A stretch of 31,837 nucleotides of DNA from a virus, in IMG/VR virus record IMGVR_UViG_3300046804_003924, positions 1 to 31,837 of that record, one strand, 5' to 3'. Positions 1 through 6,129 of the stretch are shown one piece after another. The first letter of the stretch is position 1. The number at the start of each line of letters is the position of its first letter. Below the pieces are notes generated by a model. The model worked only from the letters and a program-made list of their open reading frames with translations, was not told the origin of the DNA and ran no database searches. A program made the position numbers and the translations under genes.

Positions 1-21
1 GAGTATTATAATATTCTTATT

Positions 22-45
22 GGAAGCGTGGCAGAGTGGTTTATT
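22..45 (+). pseudogene. Possible 5' fragment of a tRNA-Ser gene
   Basis: The bases from GGAAGCG at 22-28 through GCAGAGTGGTTTATT read like the acceptor strand and D-arm of a phage class II tRNA-Ser. No matching anticodon arm follows. The complement of the acceptor strand, CGCTTCT, occurs at 607-613, directly after the complete tRNA-Ser. I read these as the two ends of an older tRNA whose middle was replaced by the HNH plus tRNA cassette, but a chance match is possible. Confidence 0.35.
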
Positions 46-85
46 CTTATAAATATTTCATAAGATATCAATAAACCACCGTGCC
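30..85 (+). promoter_or_regulatory. Hairpin over an HNH start codon, with a late promoter in its loop
   Basis: Bases 30-45 and 70-85 are inverted repeats: GGCA pairs with TGCC and GTGGTTTATT pairs with AATAAACCAC, separated by a 2-nt internal mismatch, 14 bp in all. The 3' arm contains the GTG start (81-83) of the HNH gene. The 24-nt loop contains a perfect T4-type late promoter TATAAATA at 48-55. Inference: read-through transcripts would fold and hide the start codon, while late transcripts starting in the loop lack the 5' arm and can be translated. Confidence 0.65.
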
Positions 86-533
86 CAGAAATCCAAACTG
101 TTCTTGTTGTGTTTGTGAAAAATTAATCTATAGAAGACCATCCCAAATAATTGGAAATGTTTTTTGTAGTTCTGAATGTTGTGGAAAATTCCAAAGAATA
201 AATGAAAAACTTTGTCCTATATGTGGCAAATCATTTATTGGACATAAAAAAACCTGCTCAAGGTCTTGTTCAAATAAATCAAGAACTGGTATAAAATATG
301 ATGGAACTAATTCAAATAACAAATCTACTAGGAGTAAAAGATTAAGACTTCAACTTGCCTCAAAGAGAAGTGGTAAGTGTGAAGAATGTGGCAATGAAAA
401 TTACAATATTCTTCAAGTTCATCATATAATTGAAAGATGTAATGGTGGAACTGATGAAGAAAGTAATTTACAATTACTTTGTCCTAACTGCCATTATACA
501 AAACATTTAGGTTATTCAAAATATGGAGAATAG
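81..533 (+). CDS. HNH homing endonuclease, 3' end overlapping tRNA-Ser
   Basis: 150 aa, GTG start, no clear Shine-Dalgarno sequence. The N-terminal half holds several Cys pairs (CCVC, CSSEC, CPIC, CSRSC) that look like small zinc-binding modules for DNA recognition. The C-terminal part is a standard HNH nuclease: CEEC, then VHHI with the catalytic His, then the Asn in ESNLQLLC, and CPNCH. Such free-standing nucleases are common in T4-like phages and spread by cutting an allele that lacks them. The last nine bases, including the stop, are the first nine of tRNA-Ser. A late promoter and a start-covering hairpin lie just upstream. The family is clear; the target is unknown, although the adjacent tRNA locus is the natural candidate. 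Confidence 0.88.
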   Translation: MPRNPNCSCCVCEKLIYRRPSQIIGNVFCSSECCGKFQRINEKLCPICGKSFIGHKKTCSRSCSNKSRTGIKYDGTNSNNKSTRSKRLRLQLASKRSGKCEECGNENYNILQVHHIIERCNGGTDEESNLQLLCPNCHYTKHLGYSKYGE

Positions 534-608
534 CACCGATGGTCGGTAAATCGTCTTGAAAACGATGCCAGGGATAAAACTCTGATAGTTCGATTCTATT
601 ATTCTCCG
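525..608 (+). tRNA. tRNA-Ser(UGA)
   Basis: 84 nt. The acceptor GGAGAAT (525-531) pairs perfectly with ATTCTCC (601-607), with discriminator G608, typical of serine tRNAs. The anticodon stem ATCGT/ACGAT encloses the loop CTTGAAA with anticodon TGA at 557-559. The variable arm has a CAGGG/CTCTG stem, and the T-loop is TTCGATT. The D-stem is short (ACC/GGT) and position 8 is A instead of the usual U, so this tRNA is somewhat degenerate. No CCA is encoded. Its first nine bases belong also to the preceding HNH reading frame. Confidence 0.88.
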
Positions 609-613
609 CTTCT

Positions 614-621
614 TATAAATA
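614..621 (+). promoter_or_regulatory. Late promoter TATAAATA
   Basis: A perfect match to the T4-type late promoter, six bases after the end of tRNA-Ser and 22 nt before the fibre-type gene at 643. The 12-mer TTCTTATAAATA here (610-621) is repeated exactly at 44-55, so the HNH plus tRNA cassette is bracketed by two copies of the late-promoter region. Confidence 0.75.
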
Positions 622-642
622 CCAGAAAAGTCTTTGTGACTA

Positions 643-1572
643 ATGGGTATTCAAATAAACGGAAATACTGACACTGTTACTTCAACGACTGCTGGAGGAA
701 GAGTAACGGTTACGCCTGCCTCATTTCCTTCTGTTAATAATATCAATGCTACTGGACTCTCTACGTTTTCTGGTGGTCTTTTAGTTGGAACAGGAGCATC
801 TATTAGTTCCCCTACGACTAATGTGTTGACTCTGGGAACTAATAATACTGAAGCGATTCGTATAGATTCTAGTGGTAATGTGGGTCTTGGAACAGTATCT
901 CCAGGTAGAAAACTTCATCTTTACGGAAATCTAGTAGAACTGCTTATTGAAGATCCATCAAATTCAATAAACTCAAACAGATTAAATTTATATCTTTCTG
1001 GTGATAAAGCAAACTTTAGAATGCTAAACCAGGCAGGAACTGGTGGGACAGTATTTTTACAAGGAGATGCTGTTGGTAATATTACGTTACCAACAGCTAA
1101 TACATCAATTTTAAATAGTTCTGGAAGAAAAATACTCAATCAAACTGGTGGAGTTCTTCAAGTCGTCAATACAATTAAAACAAACCAGTTTACCACCACT
1201 TCGGGAACCGCAGTAGATGTTACTGGACTTAGTGCTGCTATTACACCATCATCAACATCTAGTAAAGTTTTAGTAATTGCTTGGGTTGTTATTTCTACAA
1301 GTGGTGGTGGCGGTGATGGATATGCTAGGTTAATGAGAGATTCCACATCAATTGGAAATGGGGATGATGGATACTTTGGTCAGTCTGCTGGGCAAGATTA
1401 TTTTGCCGGTCACTCAAAGCCAATAACATATCTAGATAGTCCAGCATCTAACTCATCTTTAACTTATAAAATACAAGTATGGGGCGCCAATACATCTTAT
1501 GTAAATGGAAGGGGTTATGATGGATCATTCCGTACAAGCAGCGGAATCACACTAATGGAGATAGCAGGATGA
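643..1572 (+). CDS. Tail-fibre-like structural protein
   Basis: 309 aa, rich in Gly, Ser, Thr and Asn. The N-terminal half has beta-structured segments such as NINATGLSTFSGGLLVGTG and IRIDSSGNVGLGTVSPGRKL, the latter a motif common in bacterial and phage fibre proteins. The C-terminal half (about residue 170 on) looks like a compact beta domain ending in SSGITLMEIAG. A late promoter sits directly upstream, as expected for a virion gene. Wording such as GLSTF matches the repeats of the large structural gene at 29263, which suggests shared ancestry or function. The stop overlaps the start of the next gene. The receptor-binding role is inference; the fibre-like composition is seen. Confidence 0.7.
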   Translation: MGIQINGNTDTVTSTTAGGRVTVTPASFPSVNNINATGLSTFSGGLLVGTGASISSPTTNVLTLGTNNTEAIRIDSSGNVGLGTVSPGRKLHLYGNLVELLIEDPSNSINSNRLNLYLSGDKANFRMLNQAGTGGTVFLQGDAVGNITLPTANTSILNSSGRKILNQTGGVLQVVNTIKTNQFTTTSGTAVDVTGLSAAITPSSTSSKVLVIAWVVISTSGGGGDGYARLMRDSTSIGNGDDGYFGQSAGQDYFAGHSKPITYLDSPASNSSLTYKIQVWGANTSYVNGRGYDGSFRTSSGITLMEIAG

Positions 1573-1883
1573 CTTTTATAGTAGAAGCATTAGAATCACT
1601 AAGACCAGGAGCACGGTGGTCTCTTGATGGGGATACTTATGAGGGTCTTGAGTGGTTAGATGAAACTCAATCCAAACCAACAAAAGAAGAAGTTGAAGCA
1701 GAAATAGCAAGACTTCAATCACAGTATGATCTAACAGAATACCAACGTCAAAGAGCACCAGAGTATCCAGACCTTAAAGAATTTGTTGATGCTTATTATT
1801 GGTCGCAAAAAGGTGATGAAACTAAAATGAATGAATATATTGCAAAGTGTGATGAAATAAAAAATAACTATCCAAAACCATAG
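1569..1883 (+). CDS. Small tail-fibre-associated protein, possibly an assembly chaperone
   Basis: 104 aa. It starts within the stop of the fibre-like gene (ATGA overlap), so it is probably translationally coupled. The N-terminus is compact (LRPGARWSLDGDTYEGLEWLD); the rest is charged and helical, with YQRQRAPEYPDLKEFVDAYY. Phage proteins with this last motif usually sit immediately behind fibre genes and are described as fibre-associated or assembly proteins. No catalytic motifs are visible. The link to fibre assembly rests on position and general resemblance. Confidence 0.6.
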   Translation: MTFIVEALESLRPGARWSLDGDTYEGLEWLDETQSKPTKEEVEAEIARLQSQYDLTEYQRQRAPEYPDLKEFVDAYYWSQKGDETKMNEYIAKCDEIKNNYPKP

Positions 1884-1927
1884 TAATTTAATATTTCCTT
1901 AAACACTTTCTTGAAACGCTAACAAAC

Positions 1928-1968
1928 TTGACACTGTAGAAATACTCACTAGCATAACTAGTAGTATT
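1928..1968 (+). promoter_or_regulatory. Possible promoter with inverted repeat upstream of the PTOX cluster
   Basis: A consensus -35 box TTGACA lies at 1928-1933. Downstream there is no perfect -10, but CATAAC (1953-1958) is possible at 19 nt spacing. An imperfect hairpin covers this place: AATACT-c-ACTAG (1941-1952), loop CATAA, then CTAGTAGTATT (1958-1968), 11 bp with one bulge. It could be an operator-like site or a 5' RNA hairpin. Confidence 0.4.
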
Positions 1969-1981
1969 CAAACATAACCTT

Positions 1982-2131
1982 ATGGATCAGCACACCTACG
2001 ATAATTGGGTGAAGATCAAGGAGACTTTTGAAGCCTCTGGGAACATGGATAATATGTTCTACAAGAGAGCAGTTGAAATAGTTAAAACTCGCAAGGATCC
2101 TCTTGCGAAATTTCTTGGAGACGAGAAATGA
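1982..2131 (+). CDS. Small hypothetical protein
   Basis: 49 aa starting MDQHTYDNWVKIKE, soluble and helical with mixed charge, ending KFLGDEK. It is the first gene after the TTGACA-containing gap and starts a chain of ORFs that all overlap by a few bases (its TGA overlaps the ATG at 2128). I do not recognise the family. Confidence 0.6.
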   Translation: MDQHTYDNWVKIKETFEASGNMDNMFYKRAVEIVKTRKDPLAKFLGDEK

Positions 2132-2334
2132 TGGAACCTTTTGATCACGATTATGTATCTCGCACTGAAGTTCAGGAGATGATCGATGCTGCTATCAGAA
2201 GACACAACCGTAATGCTTCTATCATTAGCATGTGCGTTGGTTGGGTGGTCCTTGCTTTATTTGCTGAAGGACTCTTAAGACTTATTGGAGTTATTCCACC
2301 TTTACTACCATGGATCAACATTACCCTGAAATAA
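2128..2334 (+). CDS. Small membrane protein
   Basis: 68 aa. The first 33 residues are hydrophilic (EVQEMIDAAIRRHNRN), followed by one long hydrophobic segment from about residue 34 to the C-terminus (CVGWVVLALFAEGLLRLIGV), likely one membrane helix, perhaps two short ones. It overlaps the preceding gene by 4 nt and the next by 25 nt. No enzyme motif is seen. Its place beside PTOX hints at a role in the host thylakoid or inner membrane, but that is only context. Confidence 0.6.
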   Translation: MMEPFDHDYVSRTEVQEMIDAAIRRHNRNASIISMCVGWVVLALFAEGLLRLIGVIPPLLPWINITLK

Positions 2335-2489
2335 TTGGTATAGTTTTCCTGTTAGTATTTGCCGCCACGATGTTTTATCAAGGCACCTGTATTATGAGAG
2401 GTCAAAGGGGATATTCTCTCCGAGACTATATGAAACAGGAAAGCACAAACATGCGTCAAAGAATAGAAGAACTACTCAAGGACAAATGA
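2310..2489 (+). CDS. Small single-span membrane protein
   Basis: 59 aa. A short N-terminus (MDQHYPE) is followed by a membrane helix (residues about 8-22, IIGIVFLLVFAATMF) and a basic, then helical tail ending RQRIEELLKDK. It begins inside the preceding gene in another frame and its stop overlaps the next start, which supports its being translated. Family not recognised. Confidence 0.55.
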   Translation: MDQHYPEIIGIVFLLVFAATMFYQGTCIMRGQRGYSLRDYMKQESTNMRQRIEELLKDK

Positions 2490-2599
2490 TATCTCTCACA
2501 GACGAAGATATACAAGAATTACAAGGACGAGTTCTACAACAAAAGTTAGACGAACTATTTGAAGAACCATCTACTTACGAGGACGAAGAAGATGAGTAA
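2486..2599 (+). CDS. Very small acidic protein
   Basis: 37 aa, strongly acidic: MISLTDEDIQELQGRVLQQK at the start and a tail EDEEDE. Both ends overlap neighbouring ORFs in the ATGA/GATGA manner seen along this cluster. Position and overlap are the main evidence; function unknown. Confidence 0.5.
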   Translation: MISLTDEDIQELQGRVLQQKLDELFEEPSTYEDEEDE

Positions 2600-2681
2600 A
2601 ACAATTTACACTGCTATGACTCTTTTTGGTGCGATTGGACTTTTTATTATCTGGGGACTTAATCACGCATATCCACAATGA
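2592..2681 (+). CDS. 29-aa membrane peptide
   Basis: A 29-residue peptide made almost entirely of one membrane helix (residues 5-23, TLFGAIGLFIIWG) with a polar end NHAYPQ. It begins in the end of the acidic ORF and its stop overlaps the PTOX start. Its size and shape resemble small single-helix subunits of photosynthetic complexes, but it matches none that I recognise. Confidence 0.5.
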   Translation: MSKTIYTAMTLFGAIGLFIIWGLNHAYPQ

Positions 2682-3178
2682 AAAAGTTTAACGATATAAT
2701 ACTAACAGTCACGATATCAATCATTGACTTCCTGTATCGTGACTTACCTATTCAAAGATTCTGGGTTCTAGAAACAATCGCTAGAGCACCTTACTTTGCC
2801 TTTGTAAGTGTGCTTCATCTCAAGGAATCTCTAGGACTCAGAGACTTATCTCATTATTACTTGATGAAAGAACACTTCGCACAGACTTTAAATGAAACGG
2901 AACACCTTGTTGAAATGGAGCATCGTGGCGGAGCAGATCGCTGGGTTGATCGCTTTTTCGCTTATCATTTGGTTCTCATCTATTATTGGATTCTGGTGGG
3001 TTATTATTTTGTTGCTCCCGTTTCTGCTTATCACCTGAACGCAGGTATTGAGTATCACGCCACAGAAACCTATCTCTCATACCTCTGGGATCATCAGGAA
3101 GATACAAGGATCGCTGAGATCGCAGTGGATGAGATGAATCATTATATTGAACTTACAAGAGCAATGGAGATGGTCTGA
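2678..3178 (+). CDS. Plastoquinol terminal oxidase (PTOX, alternative oxidase family)
   Basis: 166 aa di-iron oxidase that would pass electrons from plastoquinol to oxygen at the membrane. The ligand motifs are present in order: E32 in VLETIARAPYF, E73 and H76 in NETEHLVEMEH, a Glu in YHATETY near residue 130, and E152/H155 in VDEMNHY. Hydrophobic stretches near 96-116 match membrane association. In cyanophages PTOX is thought to relieve over-reduction of the electron chain while photosystem II is kept running, so it fits functionally with psbA, psbD and petF here. It is coupled by 4-nt overlap to the peptide before it and by 1 nt to the one after. The family call is firm. Confidence 0.88.
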   Translation: MKKFNDIILTVTISIIDFLYRDLPIQRFWVLETIARAPYFAFVSVLHLKESLGLRDLSHYYLMKEHFAQTLNETEHLVEMEHRGGADRWVDRFFAYHLVLIYYWILVGYYFVAPVSAYHLNAGIEYHATETYLSYLWDHQEDTRIAEIAVDEMNHYIELTRAMEMV

Positions 3179-3300
3179 TGTTATTAGCAAAGGCACTTTT
3201 ATTTGTTTCAGTCCCGTTTGTTTTAGCAACACTCTATTTCGGAACAAGAGGAGGGTATTATGACTCCAAAGATTATAAAGGAAACGGAACCGCACATTAA
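3178..3300 (+). CDS. 40-aa membrane peptide after PTOX
   Basis: One N-terminal hydrophobic segment (LLAKALLFVSVPFVLATLYF, about residues 2-21), then a polar tail with GGYYDSKDYKGNG. Its ATG shares a base with the PTOX stop, so it is coupled to PTOX. The last 41 nt are shared with the next gene in another frame. This tail resembles the ends of small photosystem-associated cyanophage peptides, but I cannot assign a family. Confidence 0.55.
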   Translation: MLLAKALLFVSVPFVLATLYFGTRGGYYDSKDYKGNGTAH

Positions 3301-3481
3301 ACAGAGATATCACTTTGCCGCATCGGCATTTGTGAGAATGTGGGGGCACAGTTCATTACACGATCATAAGATTGTAGACTTTTGTATTGAGTGGGCACAC
3401 CGAGAAGAAAATGCTCCATTAGATGATAAGGTTCTTGACCAATATTTCTATTACGAATTTAAGACTTGGAGGGGATATTGA
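3260..3481 (+). CDS. Small hypothetical protein
   Basis: 73 aa, soluble, rich in His, Trp and Tyr (RYHFAASAFVRMWGHSSLHD, and YFYYEFKTWRGY at the end). A strong Shine-Dalgarno GAGGAGG lies about 5 nt before the ATG, inside the preceding gene. It overlaps its neighbours on both sides. No known domain recognised. Confidence 0.6.
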   Translation: MTPKIIKETEPHIKQRYHFAASAFVRMWGHSSLHDHKIVDFCIEWAHREENAPLDDKVLDQYFYYEFKTWRGY

Positions 3482-3630
3482 TGGGACACTTCGCACGATG
3501 GGTATTAGAAAATCCTTATACTCTTGGTATTATTGGATATCTTTTAGTCGTTGTACCGATTATGGGTATCTGGGCAATTCATAAATACGATTGGCAGCAC
3601 TGGGCTCCGTTTGACAAAAAACATAAATAA
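3481..3630 (+). CDS. Small single-span membrane protein
   Basis: 49 aa. A short N-terminus (MGHFARWVLENP) precedes a membrane helix at about residues 13-32 and a tail with aromatic residues and lysines (DWQHWAPFDKKHK). It overlaps the previous stop by one base. Its own stop lies in the late-promoter-like octamer CATAAATA (3622-3629). Last gene of the PTOX cluster; function unknown. Confidence 0.55.
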   Translation: MGHFARWVLENPYTLGIIGYLLVVVPIMGIWAIHKYDWQHWAPFDKKHK

Positions 3631-3652
3631 CGGTAGATAAATTTATTCTACC
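3611..3652 (+). promoter_or_regulatory. Late-type promoter and leader hairpin before the second HNH gene
   Basis: CATAAATA (3622-3629) fits NATAAATA. A consensus -35 hexamer TTGACA lies at 3611-3616, with only a weak -10 (TAGATA, 3634-3639) at 17 nt. A 6-bp hairpin GGTAGA/TCTACC (3632-3637 and 3647-3652) ends 3 nt before the ATG at 3656. Confidence 0.5.
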
Positions 3653-3655
3653 AAA

Positions 3656-4012
3656 ATGAGAACGCATAAATGTGGGCATTGTGGAGAAACCGACCCATCT
3701 AAATTTTATGGACACAAAAAATCAGTATGTGGGTTGTGCCATAACAAATATACACTAGAGTTGGGGCAGAAAAAAAGAAGTTTTATTATTGAGCAAATGG
3801 GAGGCAAGTGTGTTTCTTGTGGATATGATAAATATTCATCAGCACTTCAGGTTCATCATTTAGACCCTTCTCAAAAAGATGCTAAATTTCATGGTATTCG
3901 TGGATGGAGTCACGAACGCATTCTTGACGAAATAAAGGGATGTGTGCTATTATGTGCTTGTTGCCACGCAGCAGTTCACTCTGGTGAATTAGAACTACGG
4001 AGTATCGCCTAA
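3656..4012 (+). CDS. HNH endonuclease, 3' end overlapping tRNA-Pro
   Basis: 118 aa. The N-terminus has a Cys-rich module (CGHCGE and CGLCHNKY). The nuclease core reads GGKCVSCGY, then LQVHHLDP (catalytic His) and the closing CACCHAAVH, the usual C..C-HH-C..C layout of compact HNH enzymes. There is no good Shine-Dalgarno. The last 15 nt, including the stop, form the acceptor strand and first bases of tRNA-Pro, just as the first HNH gene runs into tRNA-Ser. In T4, the nuclease SegB moves a neighbouring tRNA cluster, so homing of the HNH-tRNA pair is a reasonable inference. Confidence 0.85.
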   Translation: MRTHKCGHCGETDPSKFYGHKKSVCGLCHNKYTLELGQKKRSFIIEQMGGKCVSCGYDKYSSALQVHHLDPSQKDAKFHGIRGWSHERILDEIKGCVLLCACCHAAVHSGELELRSIA

Positions 4013-4073
4013 CTTGGTTATGGCACCGCTTTTGGGAAGCGGAATAATCTCGGTTCAAATCCGGGTACTCCGA
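3998..4073 (+). tRNA. tRNA-Pro(UGG)
   Basis: 76 nt with a clean cloverleaf: acceptor CGGAGTA/TACTCCG plus A73, D-stem GCC/GGC, anticodon stem CCGCT/AGCGG with loop TTTGGGA (anticodon TGG at 4033-4035), T-arm CTCGG-TTCAAAT-CCGGG. No encoded CCA. A 7-bp hairpin TGCCAGT/ACTGGCA (4075-4094) follows immediately and may help 3' processing. The 5' end lies inside the HNH gene. Confidence 0.93.
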
Positions 4074-4097
4074 TTGCCAGTTTCTTCACTGGCACAC

Positions 4098-4126
4098 TTG
4101 ACTAAATACAATCCAAACCTTATAAT
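4098..4126 (+). promoter_or_regulatory. Sigma70-type promoter
   Basis: TTGACT (4098-4103), 17-nt spacer, TATAAT (4121-4126). This is a near-consensus host-type promoter 22 nt before the gene at 4149, consistent with early expression of the small genes that follow. Confidence 0.8.
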
Positions 4127-4148
4127 ACTAAGGCAACAATTCAAAACA

Positions 4149-4364
4149 ATGTCTCTGATTCAAAAGTTCAAAAAGGATGTTAGCACTCTTCGCTCTGCTG
4201 CTAACGGAGAATTCTACCTTGACGTAAAGAGTCCGAAACTTTATAAAAAGGTACGCCGCTTTTATGAAAATGAAGGTGTCGTGTTTTCTGGTGATCCTCT
4301 TGACGATTATGAAATGCTTATGGATTACATCGCCCAAGATCTTGAGTCTATTGAGGTTGCTTGA
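4149..4364 (+). CDS. Small hypothetical protein
   Basis: 71 aa starting MSLIQKFKKDVSTLRSA; the middle is basic (KSPKLYKKVRRFYE) and the end acidic (DPLDDYEMLMDYIAQDLESI). The ATG at 4149 is chosen because it follows a strong promoter; an earlier in-frame start would lie in the tRNA. Likely an early cyanophage protein of unknown function. Its stop overlaps the next ATG. Confidence 0.65.
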   Translation: MSLIQKFKKDVSTLRSAANGEFYLDVKSPKLYKKVRRFYENEGVVFSGDPLDDYEMLMDYIAQDLESIEVA

Positions 4365-4606
4365 TGAAGGTCGTAAAAAAACCTACCGTTCTTATGGAGC
4401 GGTTTCCTTATCGTTATGTCCAGGTCGGTACATTGGAAATCAATGGAAAACCTGATTGTCGCATTCAAAAAGTAGATTCTTATACTGGTAGGTATAGGGA
4501 TATGTATCTCTGTGATAATGAGATGCAGTTGCTGACTGCGATGGAAGACTTTGATTACACCTGCTGGTTGGATCCCGACAGGGTTCCTGCTTATGTGCGG
4601 GATTGA
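4364..4606 (+). CDS. Small hypothetical protein
   Basis: 80 aa, coupled to the preceding gene by an ATGA-type overlap (ATG at 4364). Soluble and beta-rich (MERFPYRYVQVGTLEINGKP), with a Trp/Asp/Pro end (CWLDPDRVPAYVRD). No domain recognised. It shares the 4098 promoter with the gene before. Confidence 0.6.
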   Translation: MKVVKKPTVLMERFPYRYVQVGTLEINGKPDCRIQKVDSYTGRYRDMYLCDNEMQLLTAMEDFDYTCWLDPDRVPAYVRD

Positions 4607-4652
4607 TCGTCACGGATGGACGTAAACAGCACTGGTCGGGAGCAAACCCCTT

Positions 4653-4880
4653 ATGTCTAAAACTAGTATCCTAAGGTATCTTGGGAACTTTCTCCTCTTA
4701 CTTGGTTATCAAGTTATGTTATGGGGAGATTTTAAAAGTGGTTTAGCAATAAAGTTTATCGGTGGTTTACTTGGTATTCCTTTTGCTATCAAACTCAAAC
4801 TCTGGGATGTGCTATTTCTGATAGCATTCTTTGGTATTTCCGAGATATCAAAGTTAACCCAACTTTTCTTGGTTTCTTAA
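4653..4880 (+). CDS. Small membrane protein with two or three helices
   Basis: 75 aa, mostly hydrophobic: helices at about residues 8-25 (YLGNFLLLLGYQVMLWG), 30-45 (AIKFIGGLLGIPFAIK) and 52-65. It begins 46 nt after the previous gene and is followed by the structured non-coding stretch at 4881-5044. It looks like an inner-membrane protein of unknown role. Confidence 0.55.
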   Translation: MSKTSILRYLGNFLLLLGYQVMLWGDFKSGLAIKFIGGLLGIPFAIKLKLWDVLFLIAFFGISEISKLTQLFLVS

Positions 4881-5044
4881 AATCAAGTGGTGGAGTCAAT
4901 CTGACCTCTTTTGGTTTCTTGCTTTCCCATAAAAAAGCAAGTGGTGCGGATGGGGTAACCCCGCCTGGTTTCCAATTTCCAGTAAAAGAATTGGTGGCGT
5001 GCATGAAAGACCTAACGGGAGAGTTGCATAAACTCTCCTTTTTT
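4881..5044 (+). ncRNA. Structured intergenic stretch, candidate small RNA
   Basis: I see no convincing gene in 4881-5076. The stretch holds consecutive hairpins: CTTGCTTT/AAAGCAAG (4918-4941), GGGG-TAA-CCCC (4952-4962), CCAATT/AATTGG (4972-4994) and the terminator at 5018-5044. Such a series ending in an intrinsic terminator is what a small RNA or a structured 3' UTR of the preceding gene would look like. I do not match it to a known RNA family and no clear own promoter is visible. Confidence 0.35.
5018..5044 (+). terminator. Intrinsic terminator
   Basis: GGAGAGTT (5018-5025), loop GCATA, AACTCTCC (5031-5038), then six T. The loop region overlaps the -35 box of the glycan operon promoter. 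Confidence 0.88.
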
Positions 5045-5052
5045 AGTATAAT
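5024..5052 (+). promoter_or_regulatory. Sigma70-type promoter of the glycan operon, -35 in a terminator loop
   Basis: TTGCAT (5024-5029) and TATAAT (5047-5052) are 17 nt apart. The -35 box straddles the 5' stem and loop of the terminator. This is the only good promoter before the 17-gene run starting at 5077. Confidence 0.65.
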
Positions 5053-5076
5053 ACATAGTATAGAGTTTATGATTTT

Positions 5077-6129
5077 ATGAGTCAGTATATGAAGAAAGCA
5101 CTAGTGCTGGGTGCTGGTGGTTTCATTGGAAGTCATATGGTTCGCAGACTGCGTTCCGAAGGATATTGGGTTCGTGGTGTAGACCTTAAGTATCCAGAGT
5201 ATTCAGAGCACGAAGCGAATGAATTTGTTCGTGGAGATCTACGTGATGTTGATTTTGTTCGCCGTGTTCTTGAATATAAAGGTGATCGTGGAAACTTTTA
5301 TCACTCAGTTCCCTATCGTTATATTCAGTCATTTGATGAGATCTATCAGTTTGCTGCTGATATGGGTGGAGCAGGTTTTGTATTCACTGGTGACAATGAT
5401 GCCGACATCATGCACAACTCAGCAACAATCAACTTGAATGTTCTGGAAATGCAACACCAGATGAATGAACGTCTGGGTAAGAACAGCACCAAGATCTTCT
5501 ATTCTGGATCTGCGTGTATGTATCCAGAGCACAATCAACTAGACCCTGATAATCCCGATTGCCGTGAAGAGTCAGCCTACCCCGCTAACCCAGATTCTGA
5601 ATATGGTTGGGAGAAACTTTTCTCAGAGCGACTCTTTTTCGCTTATCATCGTAATTACGGGATTCCTGTACGGGTTGCTCGTTATCACAACATCTTTGGT
5701 CCTGAAGGAACCTGGGACGGTGGACGTGAAAAAGCACCCGCAGCAATCTGCCGTAAAGTAGCATATCTTCCAGAAAAGGGTGGTAGTATTGATGTGTGGG
5801 GTGATGGAAAGCAAACTCGTTCATTCCTTTACATTGATGAATGTATTGAAGCAACCCGTCGTCTAATGGATTCCACCTTTATTGGTCCAGTCAACATTGG
5901 ATCTGAAGAGATGGTGACCATTGATCAACTGGTTGACACTGCTGCTAAGGTTTCTGGCAAGACTGTTGAGAAGAATCATATTCCTGGTCCTCTGGGTGTT
6001 CGTGGTCGTAATTCAAATAACGACGTGATCCGCAGAGAACTTGGATGGGATTATTCTCAGACTCTGGAAGAGGGAATCCGTAAGACTTATGCATGGATTA
6101 GTGAGCAAATCAATGCGAAAAAAGTTTAA
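5077..6129 (+). CDS. GDP-mannose 3,5-epimerase-like SDR enzyme
   Basis: 350 aa extended short-chain dehydrogenase/reductase. The NAD-binding GAGGFIG is at residues 12-18. The sequence follows the GDP-mannose 3,5-epimerase family closely: QFAADMGG, FYSGSACMYPE with the acid/base Cys C147, YGWEK with Y176 and K180, the substrate segment GGREKAPAAICRK (K219), WGDGKQTRSF and VNIGSEEMV. These enzymes turn GDP-D-mannose into GDP-L-galactose and GDP-L-gulose in the cytoplasm. It opens the glycan operon. ATG 5077 is used; ATG 5089 (MKKALVLG) is an equally possible start. Family assignment strong, exact product inferred. Confidence 0.85.
   Translation: MSQYMKKALVLGAGGFIGSHMVRRLRSEGYWVRGVDLKYPEYSEHEANEFVRGDLRDVDFVRRVLEYKGDRGNFYHSVPYRYIQSFDEIYQFAADMGGAGFVFTGDNDADIMHNSATINLNVLEMQHQMNERLGKNSTKIFYSGSACMYPEHNQLDPDNPDCREESAYPANPDSEYGWEKLFSERLFFAYHRNYGIPVRVARYHNIFGPEGTWDGGREKAPAAICRKVAYLPEKGGSIDVWGDGKQTRSFLYIDECIEATRRLMDSTFIGPVNIGSEEMVTIDQLVDTAAKVSGKTVEKNHIPGPLGVRGRNSNNDVIRRELGWDYSQTLEEGIRKTYAWISEQINAKKV

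Follow-up and report, generated by a model that had tools for sequence, protein, structure and literature searches.

Why should an HNH nuclease gene end inside a tRNA gene, and why should a second, different one do the same a few kilobases away? The window, by which we mean the whole stretch of DNA that was analysed (a 31,837-base virus record), has its best DNA matches among T4-like cyanophages with psbA/psbD. The features that raise the question are:

81–533, + strand: HNH1, an HNH gene different from HNH2; 150 aa, starting with GTG; ends GGA GAA TAG, 9 nt inside tRNA-Ser
3656–4012, + strand: HNH2, a free-standing HNH nuclease gene; 118 aa; its last 4 codons and TAA stop lie inside tRNA-Pro
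3998–4073, + strand: tRNA-Pro(TGG), the occupied site, found by ARAGORN and also by Rfam; insertion point between 3997 and 3998
3998–4012, + strand: overlap of HNH2 and tRNA-Pro, 15 nt; the stop TAA is tRNA positions 13–15

According to the initial annotation, two quite different HNH genes each stop within the first 15 nt of a tRNA, HNH2 doing so in tRNA-Pro. Both statements agree with the coordinates above and with the differing profile scores given below. Elsewhere in the window, a plastoquinol terminal oxidase gene (2678–3178; phrog_4235) lies upstream of the tRNA-Pro locus, and a wcaG RNA motif (4910–5008; RF01761, E=8e-19) lies 5' of a nucleotide-sugar epimerase gene.

HNH2 is a predicted HNH endonuclease

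HNH2 is predicted to belong to the HNH endonuclease superfamily. A profile search matched it to PHROG 2255 'HNH endonuclease' (E=7.5e-25), with a match to Pfam PF01844 under the curated cut-off (E=0.012). HNH1 matches PF01844 at E=7.4e-12, and the two are distinct HNH proteins; Pfam and PHROGs return HNH families for both, with a GIY-YIG domain in neither. Two matches with internal stops were left out of the alignments of matches. Across 44 aligned sequences of the HNH2 family, C52, C55, H67, H68, C100, C103, H104 and H108 are invariant, and HNH2 has the catalytic HH and second H together with the CxxC..CxxC zinc pairs. The predicted structure (pLDDT 92.7), inspected for a beta-beta-alpha metal fold, has strands at 64–68 and 96–100 and a helix at 101–108; pLDDT drops to 74 in the final 8-residue block, half of which is encoded by the tRNA. 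The best PDB matches of the model are the HNH nucleases Cap5, Gme HNH and EndoVII, all of them weak (E at least 0.14).

HNH2 is an intact, single, stand-alone ORF with its own leader and lies in neither an intron nor an intein, and its dN/dS of 0.05–0.16 indicates purifying selection. Among the matches listed, named cyanophage isolates hold no close relative; the nearest named relatives there are in coliphages (navn and others, 60% identity), where the HNH gene lies within the tRNA region and is not flush with a tRNA. One contig (L206) carries an HNH2 relative in two pieces 5' of tRNA-Pro, apparently a decaying copy. Two others (L023 and L027) have a permuted tmRNA, called by ARAGORN with the tags ANKIVAFTRTAQTV and ANKIVAFARTAQTV, some 690 nt upstream of the HNH2 stop and near the HNH–tRNA-Pro unit.

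Conserved tRNA triplets account for the overlap

The 3' end of HNH2 reads CTA CGG AGT ATC GCC TAA, in which everything from CGG onwards is nucleotides 1–15 of tRNA-Pro. Close relatives with the 3' end present likewise stop in or directly before tRNA-Pro; in the 33 unique contexts listed for the HNH2 cluster, the stop lies 15 nt in (25 contexts), 16 nt in (3), 11 nt in (3) or directly before the tRNA (2). In the HNH clusters that run into a tRNA, the stops are mostly TAG at about nucleotides 8–10 (15 clusters, 10-nt overlap) and TAA at 13–15. tRNAs conserve U8, A9 and G10 as well as A14 and R15, so that almost every tRNA offers a stop to an ORF that lacks one. This makes the overlap a side effect of flush insertion, by which an ORF without its own stop reaches the conserved triplets (U8-A9-G10 or N13-A14-R15), and not a separate targeting signal. 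We dropped the 15-nt overlap as such a signal: the overlap lengths track the conserved triplets, and in some relatives the stop codon falls just short of the tRNA.

HNH genes are over-represented at tRNA starts

An overlap of this kind could also arise through compaction only, with tightly packed phage genes ending near a downstream tRNA and an ORF that has lost its stop running into it. Ordinary genes are indeed found close to tRNAs (in many cyanophages an 85-aa gene ends 0–10 nt before tRNA-Ser and a 54-aa gene 6–9 nt before tRNA-Val), and here too the conserved tRNA triplets would set exact overlap lengths. The initial annotation had argued that two cases in one window make chance unlikely, and had proposed a survey of HNH ends at tRNA starts.

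At least 80 HNH2 relatives were collected from IMG/VR, and further loci were added via HNH1, the tRNA-Pro pattern, the neighbouring gene phrog_552 and an HNH alignment. The resulting set comprises at least 372 loci (3.1 Mb), seeded partly with the window's own HNH gene and with tRNAs called by ARAGORN only. HNH genes were clustered at 70% identity (n=119), and a gene was counted as at a tRNA start where its 3' end fell at −45 to +20 of a same-strand tRNA start, a cluster being counted when one of its members did so. By this measure 47 of the 119 HNH clusters (39%) end at a tRNA start compared with 222 of 3,649 control genes (6.1%), an odds ratio of 10 with p about 1e-24 for clusters that are not fully independent. 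HNH 5' ends show no excess at tRNAs (5/119 clusters versus 151/3,649 controls, p=0.8). The neighbour-anchored cyanophage set, chosen through phrog_552 without reference to HNH genes, gave the same enrichment: 9/17 HNH genes are flush with a tRNA start, against 50/892 other genes (p=1.8e-7). The initial annotation had named a survey lacking such an excess as what would refute its proposal, and this outcome did not occur. Roughly half of the HNH clusters end elsewhere than at a tRNA.

Named isolates also have the arrangement: in phiK7A1 an HNH gene overlaps tRNA-Lys by 10 nt, in PAK_P4 one is likewise at a tRNA start, and in SE_PL 8 nt separate the HNH gene from tRNA-Asn. A separate observation concerns 14 HNH clusters (L071, L072, L078, L079, L215 and others) that end where a tRNA on the other strand has its 3' end, 12% against 1.4% of controls (51 genes; p about 7e-9).

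Compaction fits these results poorly. HNH genes are 10-fold over-represented at tRNA starts, in many unrelated families and at 15 tRNA isotypes; where a conserved ordinary gene abuts a tRNA it mostly stops short of it, whereas 33 of the 47 flush HNH clusters overlap the tRNA; and empty alleles, described below, place the insertion at that very nucleotide. Compaction only is accordingly very unlikely, and as a full explanation both it and chance are ruled out by the control genes and the exact empty sites.

Empty alleles place the insertion at tRNA nucleotide +1

One and the same site is occupied in some genomes and empty in related ones (L280/L290, L029/L166, L036/L186 and L025/L184); the pairs L256/L127, L032/L098, L244/L186 and L249/L290 were left out of the empty-site comparison. 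In the best pair, L280/L290, the left flank is 98% identical over 253 nt, tRNA-Pro is identical and the right flank nearly so; L280 differs by a 365-bp insert between tRNA −1 and +1, with one base of ambiguity. Compared with L166, L029 has a 382-bp insert exactly at +1, and in L036/L186 and L025/L184 the insertion point agrees within a few nucleotides. Two different HNH families (clusters 0 and 61) stand at the same tRNA-Pro nucleotide; the HNH genes of L280 and L029 differ in family, so that this nucleotide was used twice independently. These alleles give a precise form to the proposal of the initial annotation that HNH genes repeatedly insert at tRNA 5' ends: HNH2-type genes lie exactly at −1/+1 of a resident tRNA-Pro.

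Occupancy by HNH2 is patchy (33 occupied and 59 not, among the 92 tRNA-Pro contexts listed). HNH2 relatives also stand at the start of tRNA-Pro genes of quite different sequence (L038, L040), and the same nuclease family is found before tRNAs in several genomic contexts. That HNH2 and tRNA-Pro always move as one cassette was rejected: the tRNA-Pro genes of L038 and L040 differ, and L280 and L290 share their tRNA. For the tRNA-Pro allele of L040, the matches listed in a search for an unoccupied counterpart comprised the two occupied contigs only. In the window the insert also removed a short leader, and at this place empty relatives (L120) hold a TTGACA..TATAAT promoter.

The insert carries a late-promoter-like motif and a hairpin

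The leaders of the two genes contain the following elements:

3622–3629, + strand: CATAAATA, resembling a T4-type late promoter; lies at the left edge of the HNH2 insert and at its end overlaps the upstream gene's stop codon (3628–3630)
3632–3652, + strand: HNH2 leader hairpin GGTAGA..TCTACC, directly before the ATG; −7.6 kcal/mol, z −3.7
38–77, + strand: HNH1 leader hairpin GGTTTAT..ATAAACC; −8.1 kcal/mol, z −3.1
48–55, + strand: TATAAATA, late-promoter-like, in the loop of the HNH1 leader hairpin

The allele comparisons show the insertion of one unit, its left edge formed by the late-promoter-like motif and hairpin and its right edge by the last HNH codon, at tRNA −1/+1. The hairpin recurs in almost every HNH2 relative whose leader can be read. 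The family of L280 has the late-promoter-like motif inside the hairpin loop, as in HNH1, with a hairpin z of −7.0. Over the survey, the motif precedes 22/47 flush HNH clusters versus 46/387 other genes; combined with, or shortly ahead of, a stem of 6 bp or more, it is found at 18/47 flush HNH clusters, 15/75 non-flush clusters and 30/387 other genes. In T4, a late promoter and hairpin in the leaders of I-TevI, segB and others confine translation to late infection (PMC2988022).

HNH1 and a resident tRNA-Ser

At the HNH1 locus the left junction lies within a tRNA gene:

22–45, + strand: 5' part left over from the tRNA-Ser that formerly resided here (GGAAGCGTGGCAGAGTGGTTTATT), whose D loop HNH1 entered and broke; the remnant is similar to the intact tRNA-Ser that L242 has at this place
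525–609, + strand: tRNA-Ser(TGA), which arrived with HNH1; called by ARAGORN, below the Rfam gathering score

The D arm of the tRNA-Ser at 525–609 is unusual, and this tRNA is possibly atypical or degenerate. Other resident tRNA-Ser alleles are broken at the same D-loop point in L085, L089 and L095, and at least three different resident alleles have been broken there by HNH1. These insertions keep the first 22–26 nt of the resident tRNA-Ser, have a complete new tRNA-Ser downstream, and leave remnants that in different alleles all reach GGTTTAT, the 5' arm of the HNH1 leader hairpin. In the empty state of the site, it is the 85-aa gene mentioned above that ends just before tRNA-Ser; in the HNH1 state, HNH1 either comes directly after that gene (L091–L094) or sits in the D loop as just described; in a third state the site holds a PD-(D/E)XK nuclease, treated below. 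Judged from the junctions, the alleles show HNH1 to have replaced resident tRNA-Ser genes with its own, the left junction being in the D loop. The suggestion that HNH genes move together with a tRNA is thus upheld as well.

In L311 a different HNH family stands before tRNA-Ser(act), with a 25-nt tRNA-Ser 5' fragment upstream that is much like the downstream tRNA; from this fragment, D-loop insertion was probably independent there. When the DNA preceding the other flush HNH genes was scanned automatically for tRNA 5' remnants, L311 was the one further case.

The position of HNH1 between a tRNA-Ser 5' fragment (22–45) and a tRNA-Ser (525–609) might suggest a group I intron or its remnant, in which the HNH ORF lies in a tRNA intron and the tRNA is spliced; tRNA introns often house homing nucleases. 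However, the downstream tRNAs are complete, and the inserts of about 365–382 bp are nearly all ORF and leader. Rfam detected no group I intron in window positions 1–6000 at the gathering score, and on this ground the intron reading, which we regard as extremely improbable, was rejected.

An unrelated nuclease ends at the same site

A nuclease of the PD-(D/E)XK superfamily (PDDEXK_5) ends exactly at tRNA-Ser −1 in 8/8 of the unique contexts with a readable 3' end listed, for example:

L119, 12649–13032, reverse strand: PDDEXK_5 nuclease with a late-promoter/hairpin leader (also in L377–L389)

In L388 it precedes the same tRNA-Ser type that accompanies HNH1 in the window. These phage nucleases resemble HNH2 in lying exactly at tRNA −1/+1 behind the same kind of leader, but have another nuclease fold and their own stop codon. 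The cyanobacterial prototype of PDDEXK_5, I-Ssp6803I, has its gene within a group I intron of tRNA-fMet. As read from the gene ends, unrelated nucleases evidently use the same site at the tRNA start.

Such convergence might reflect tolerance without targeting, where nuclease genes land anywhere and insertions between a tRNA promoter and its tRNA survive via RNase P. The insertion site (tRNA −1/+1) coincides exactly with the RNase P cut site, and three unrelated nuclease superfamilies, presumably of different specificities, are found at the site or within a few nucleotides of it. Yet the inserted genes identified are nearly all nucleases, HNH2 relatives keep to tRNA-Pro despite strongly differing sequences (which suggests isotype-linked recognition), and gaps beside ordinary genes should tolerate insertion equally. 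As the whole account we think tolerance unlikely; part of the enrichment could nevertheless come from a harmless site instead of from targeting.

Comparison with SegB and other phage nucleases

That SegB and HNH genes are linked to tRNAs was already known. The likeness to T4 SegB drawn by the initial annotation holds for position and leader: the T4 segB 3' end is 5 nt before tRNA-Arg, and SegB of T4/T6 is, like HNH2, encoded in a tRNA region by a gene that finishes at the 5' end of a tRNA and has a late promoter and hairpin in the leader (PMC2988022). It does not extend to the family, since SegB has a GIY-YIG rather than an HNH domain and neither HNH1 nor HNH2 is of that family; moreover, segB has its own stop before the tRNA and lies in a tRNA array, not at single tRNAs as in cyanophages. 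The Mob proteins of T4-like phages, MobE among them, share with HNH2 a stand-alone HNH gene adjoining a conserved gene and hairpin-regulated late expression (Aeh1 mobE, PMC2988022). In contrast to HNH2, Mob genes adjoin protein genes (nrdA/nrdB and others) and are not flush with tRNAs.

In mycobacteriophage and mycobacterial tRNA arrays, the excerpted accounts give HNH nucleases as the most widespread protein genes and propose them as diversifiers of tRNA repertoires (PMC5966550, PMC6409571, citing Pope et al. 2014). These excerpts report them as array gene content, and contain no +1 insertion, stops inside tRNAs or empty alleles. In the open-access literature we found no description of nucleotide-exact insertion at tRNA +1, or of one site common to several nuclease superfamilies.

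SegB is tied to the spread and amplification of tRNA genes: it is enriched within 1 kb of tRNAs, and in T6 drives tRNA gene amplification and escape from host defence (PMC13096335). The nucleases described here might similarly have been domesticated, serving the phage by excluding the tRNA genes of rivals or by multiplying the phage's own tRNAs in response to host defences that cut tRNAs, a role that would be compatible with homing. The strong purifying selection on HNH2 is in keeping with such a function. Its patchy presence at tRNA-Pro is less so, and ARAGORN showed no tandem tRNA copies in the window; a domesticated role is therefore doubtful.

A model for homing at tRNA 5' ends

We conclude that HNH2 and HNH1 are probably free-standing homing-endonuclease genes, and that they occupy, as their niche for insertion, the 5' ends of phage tRNA genes; this is a reading of gene arrangement and allele comparison. 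The HNH enzyme would cut or nick the tRNA gene of a co-infecting phage without the insert, and repair of the break would copy in the nuclease gene, sometimes together with its tRNA. The site would be tolerated because RNase P remakes the tRNA 5' end whatever lies upstream, and because every tRNA could supply in-frame stop triplets (U8-A9-G10; N13-A14-R15) to a stop-less ORF. By analogy with T4, transcripts reading through from upstream would fold the hairpin and leave the nuclease untranslated, while those from the late promoter would begin inside the hairpin and be translated. RNase P processing would in turn sever the stop codon from the nuclease mRNA, so that each transcript would give either tRNA or nuclease.

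The tRNA is the same with and without the insert in L280/L290, so a target confined to the tRNA would not spare the carrier itself. Self-protection of the HNH enzyme must then come from a target read across the junction, from a nickase that tolerates its own site (nicking both alleles) or from regulation. Occupied sites do not share a conserved leader 5' of the insertion point, and this speaks against a junction target of any great length.

More broadly, the tRNA 5' end may be a general, nucleotide-exact docking site in phages on which HNH, PD-(D/E)XK and GIY-YIG homing nucleases have converged. The tRNA would offer a conserved target, a junction that RNase P repairs by itself and a ready stop (U8-A9-G10 or A14-R15); a nuclease gene would be acceptable before any tRNA, leaving it unharmed, and RNase P would throttle nuclease expression. 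We regard the case for and against this generalization as evenly balanced.

The empty and occupied alleles provide clear DNA substrates for determining the specificity of HNH nucleases without a known target, and the rule that emerges, to inspect tRNA nucleotide +1, is applicable to any genome. Phage tRNA genes are important for translation and for evading host defences that cut tRNAs, yet why they are distributed so patchily is poorly accounted for. By docking at tRNA 5' ends, and in one case here replacing the resident tRNA as well, such nucleases would be a concrete engine of phage tRNA turnover.
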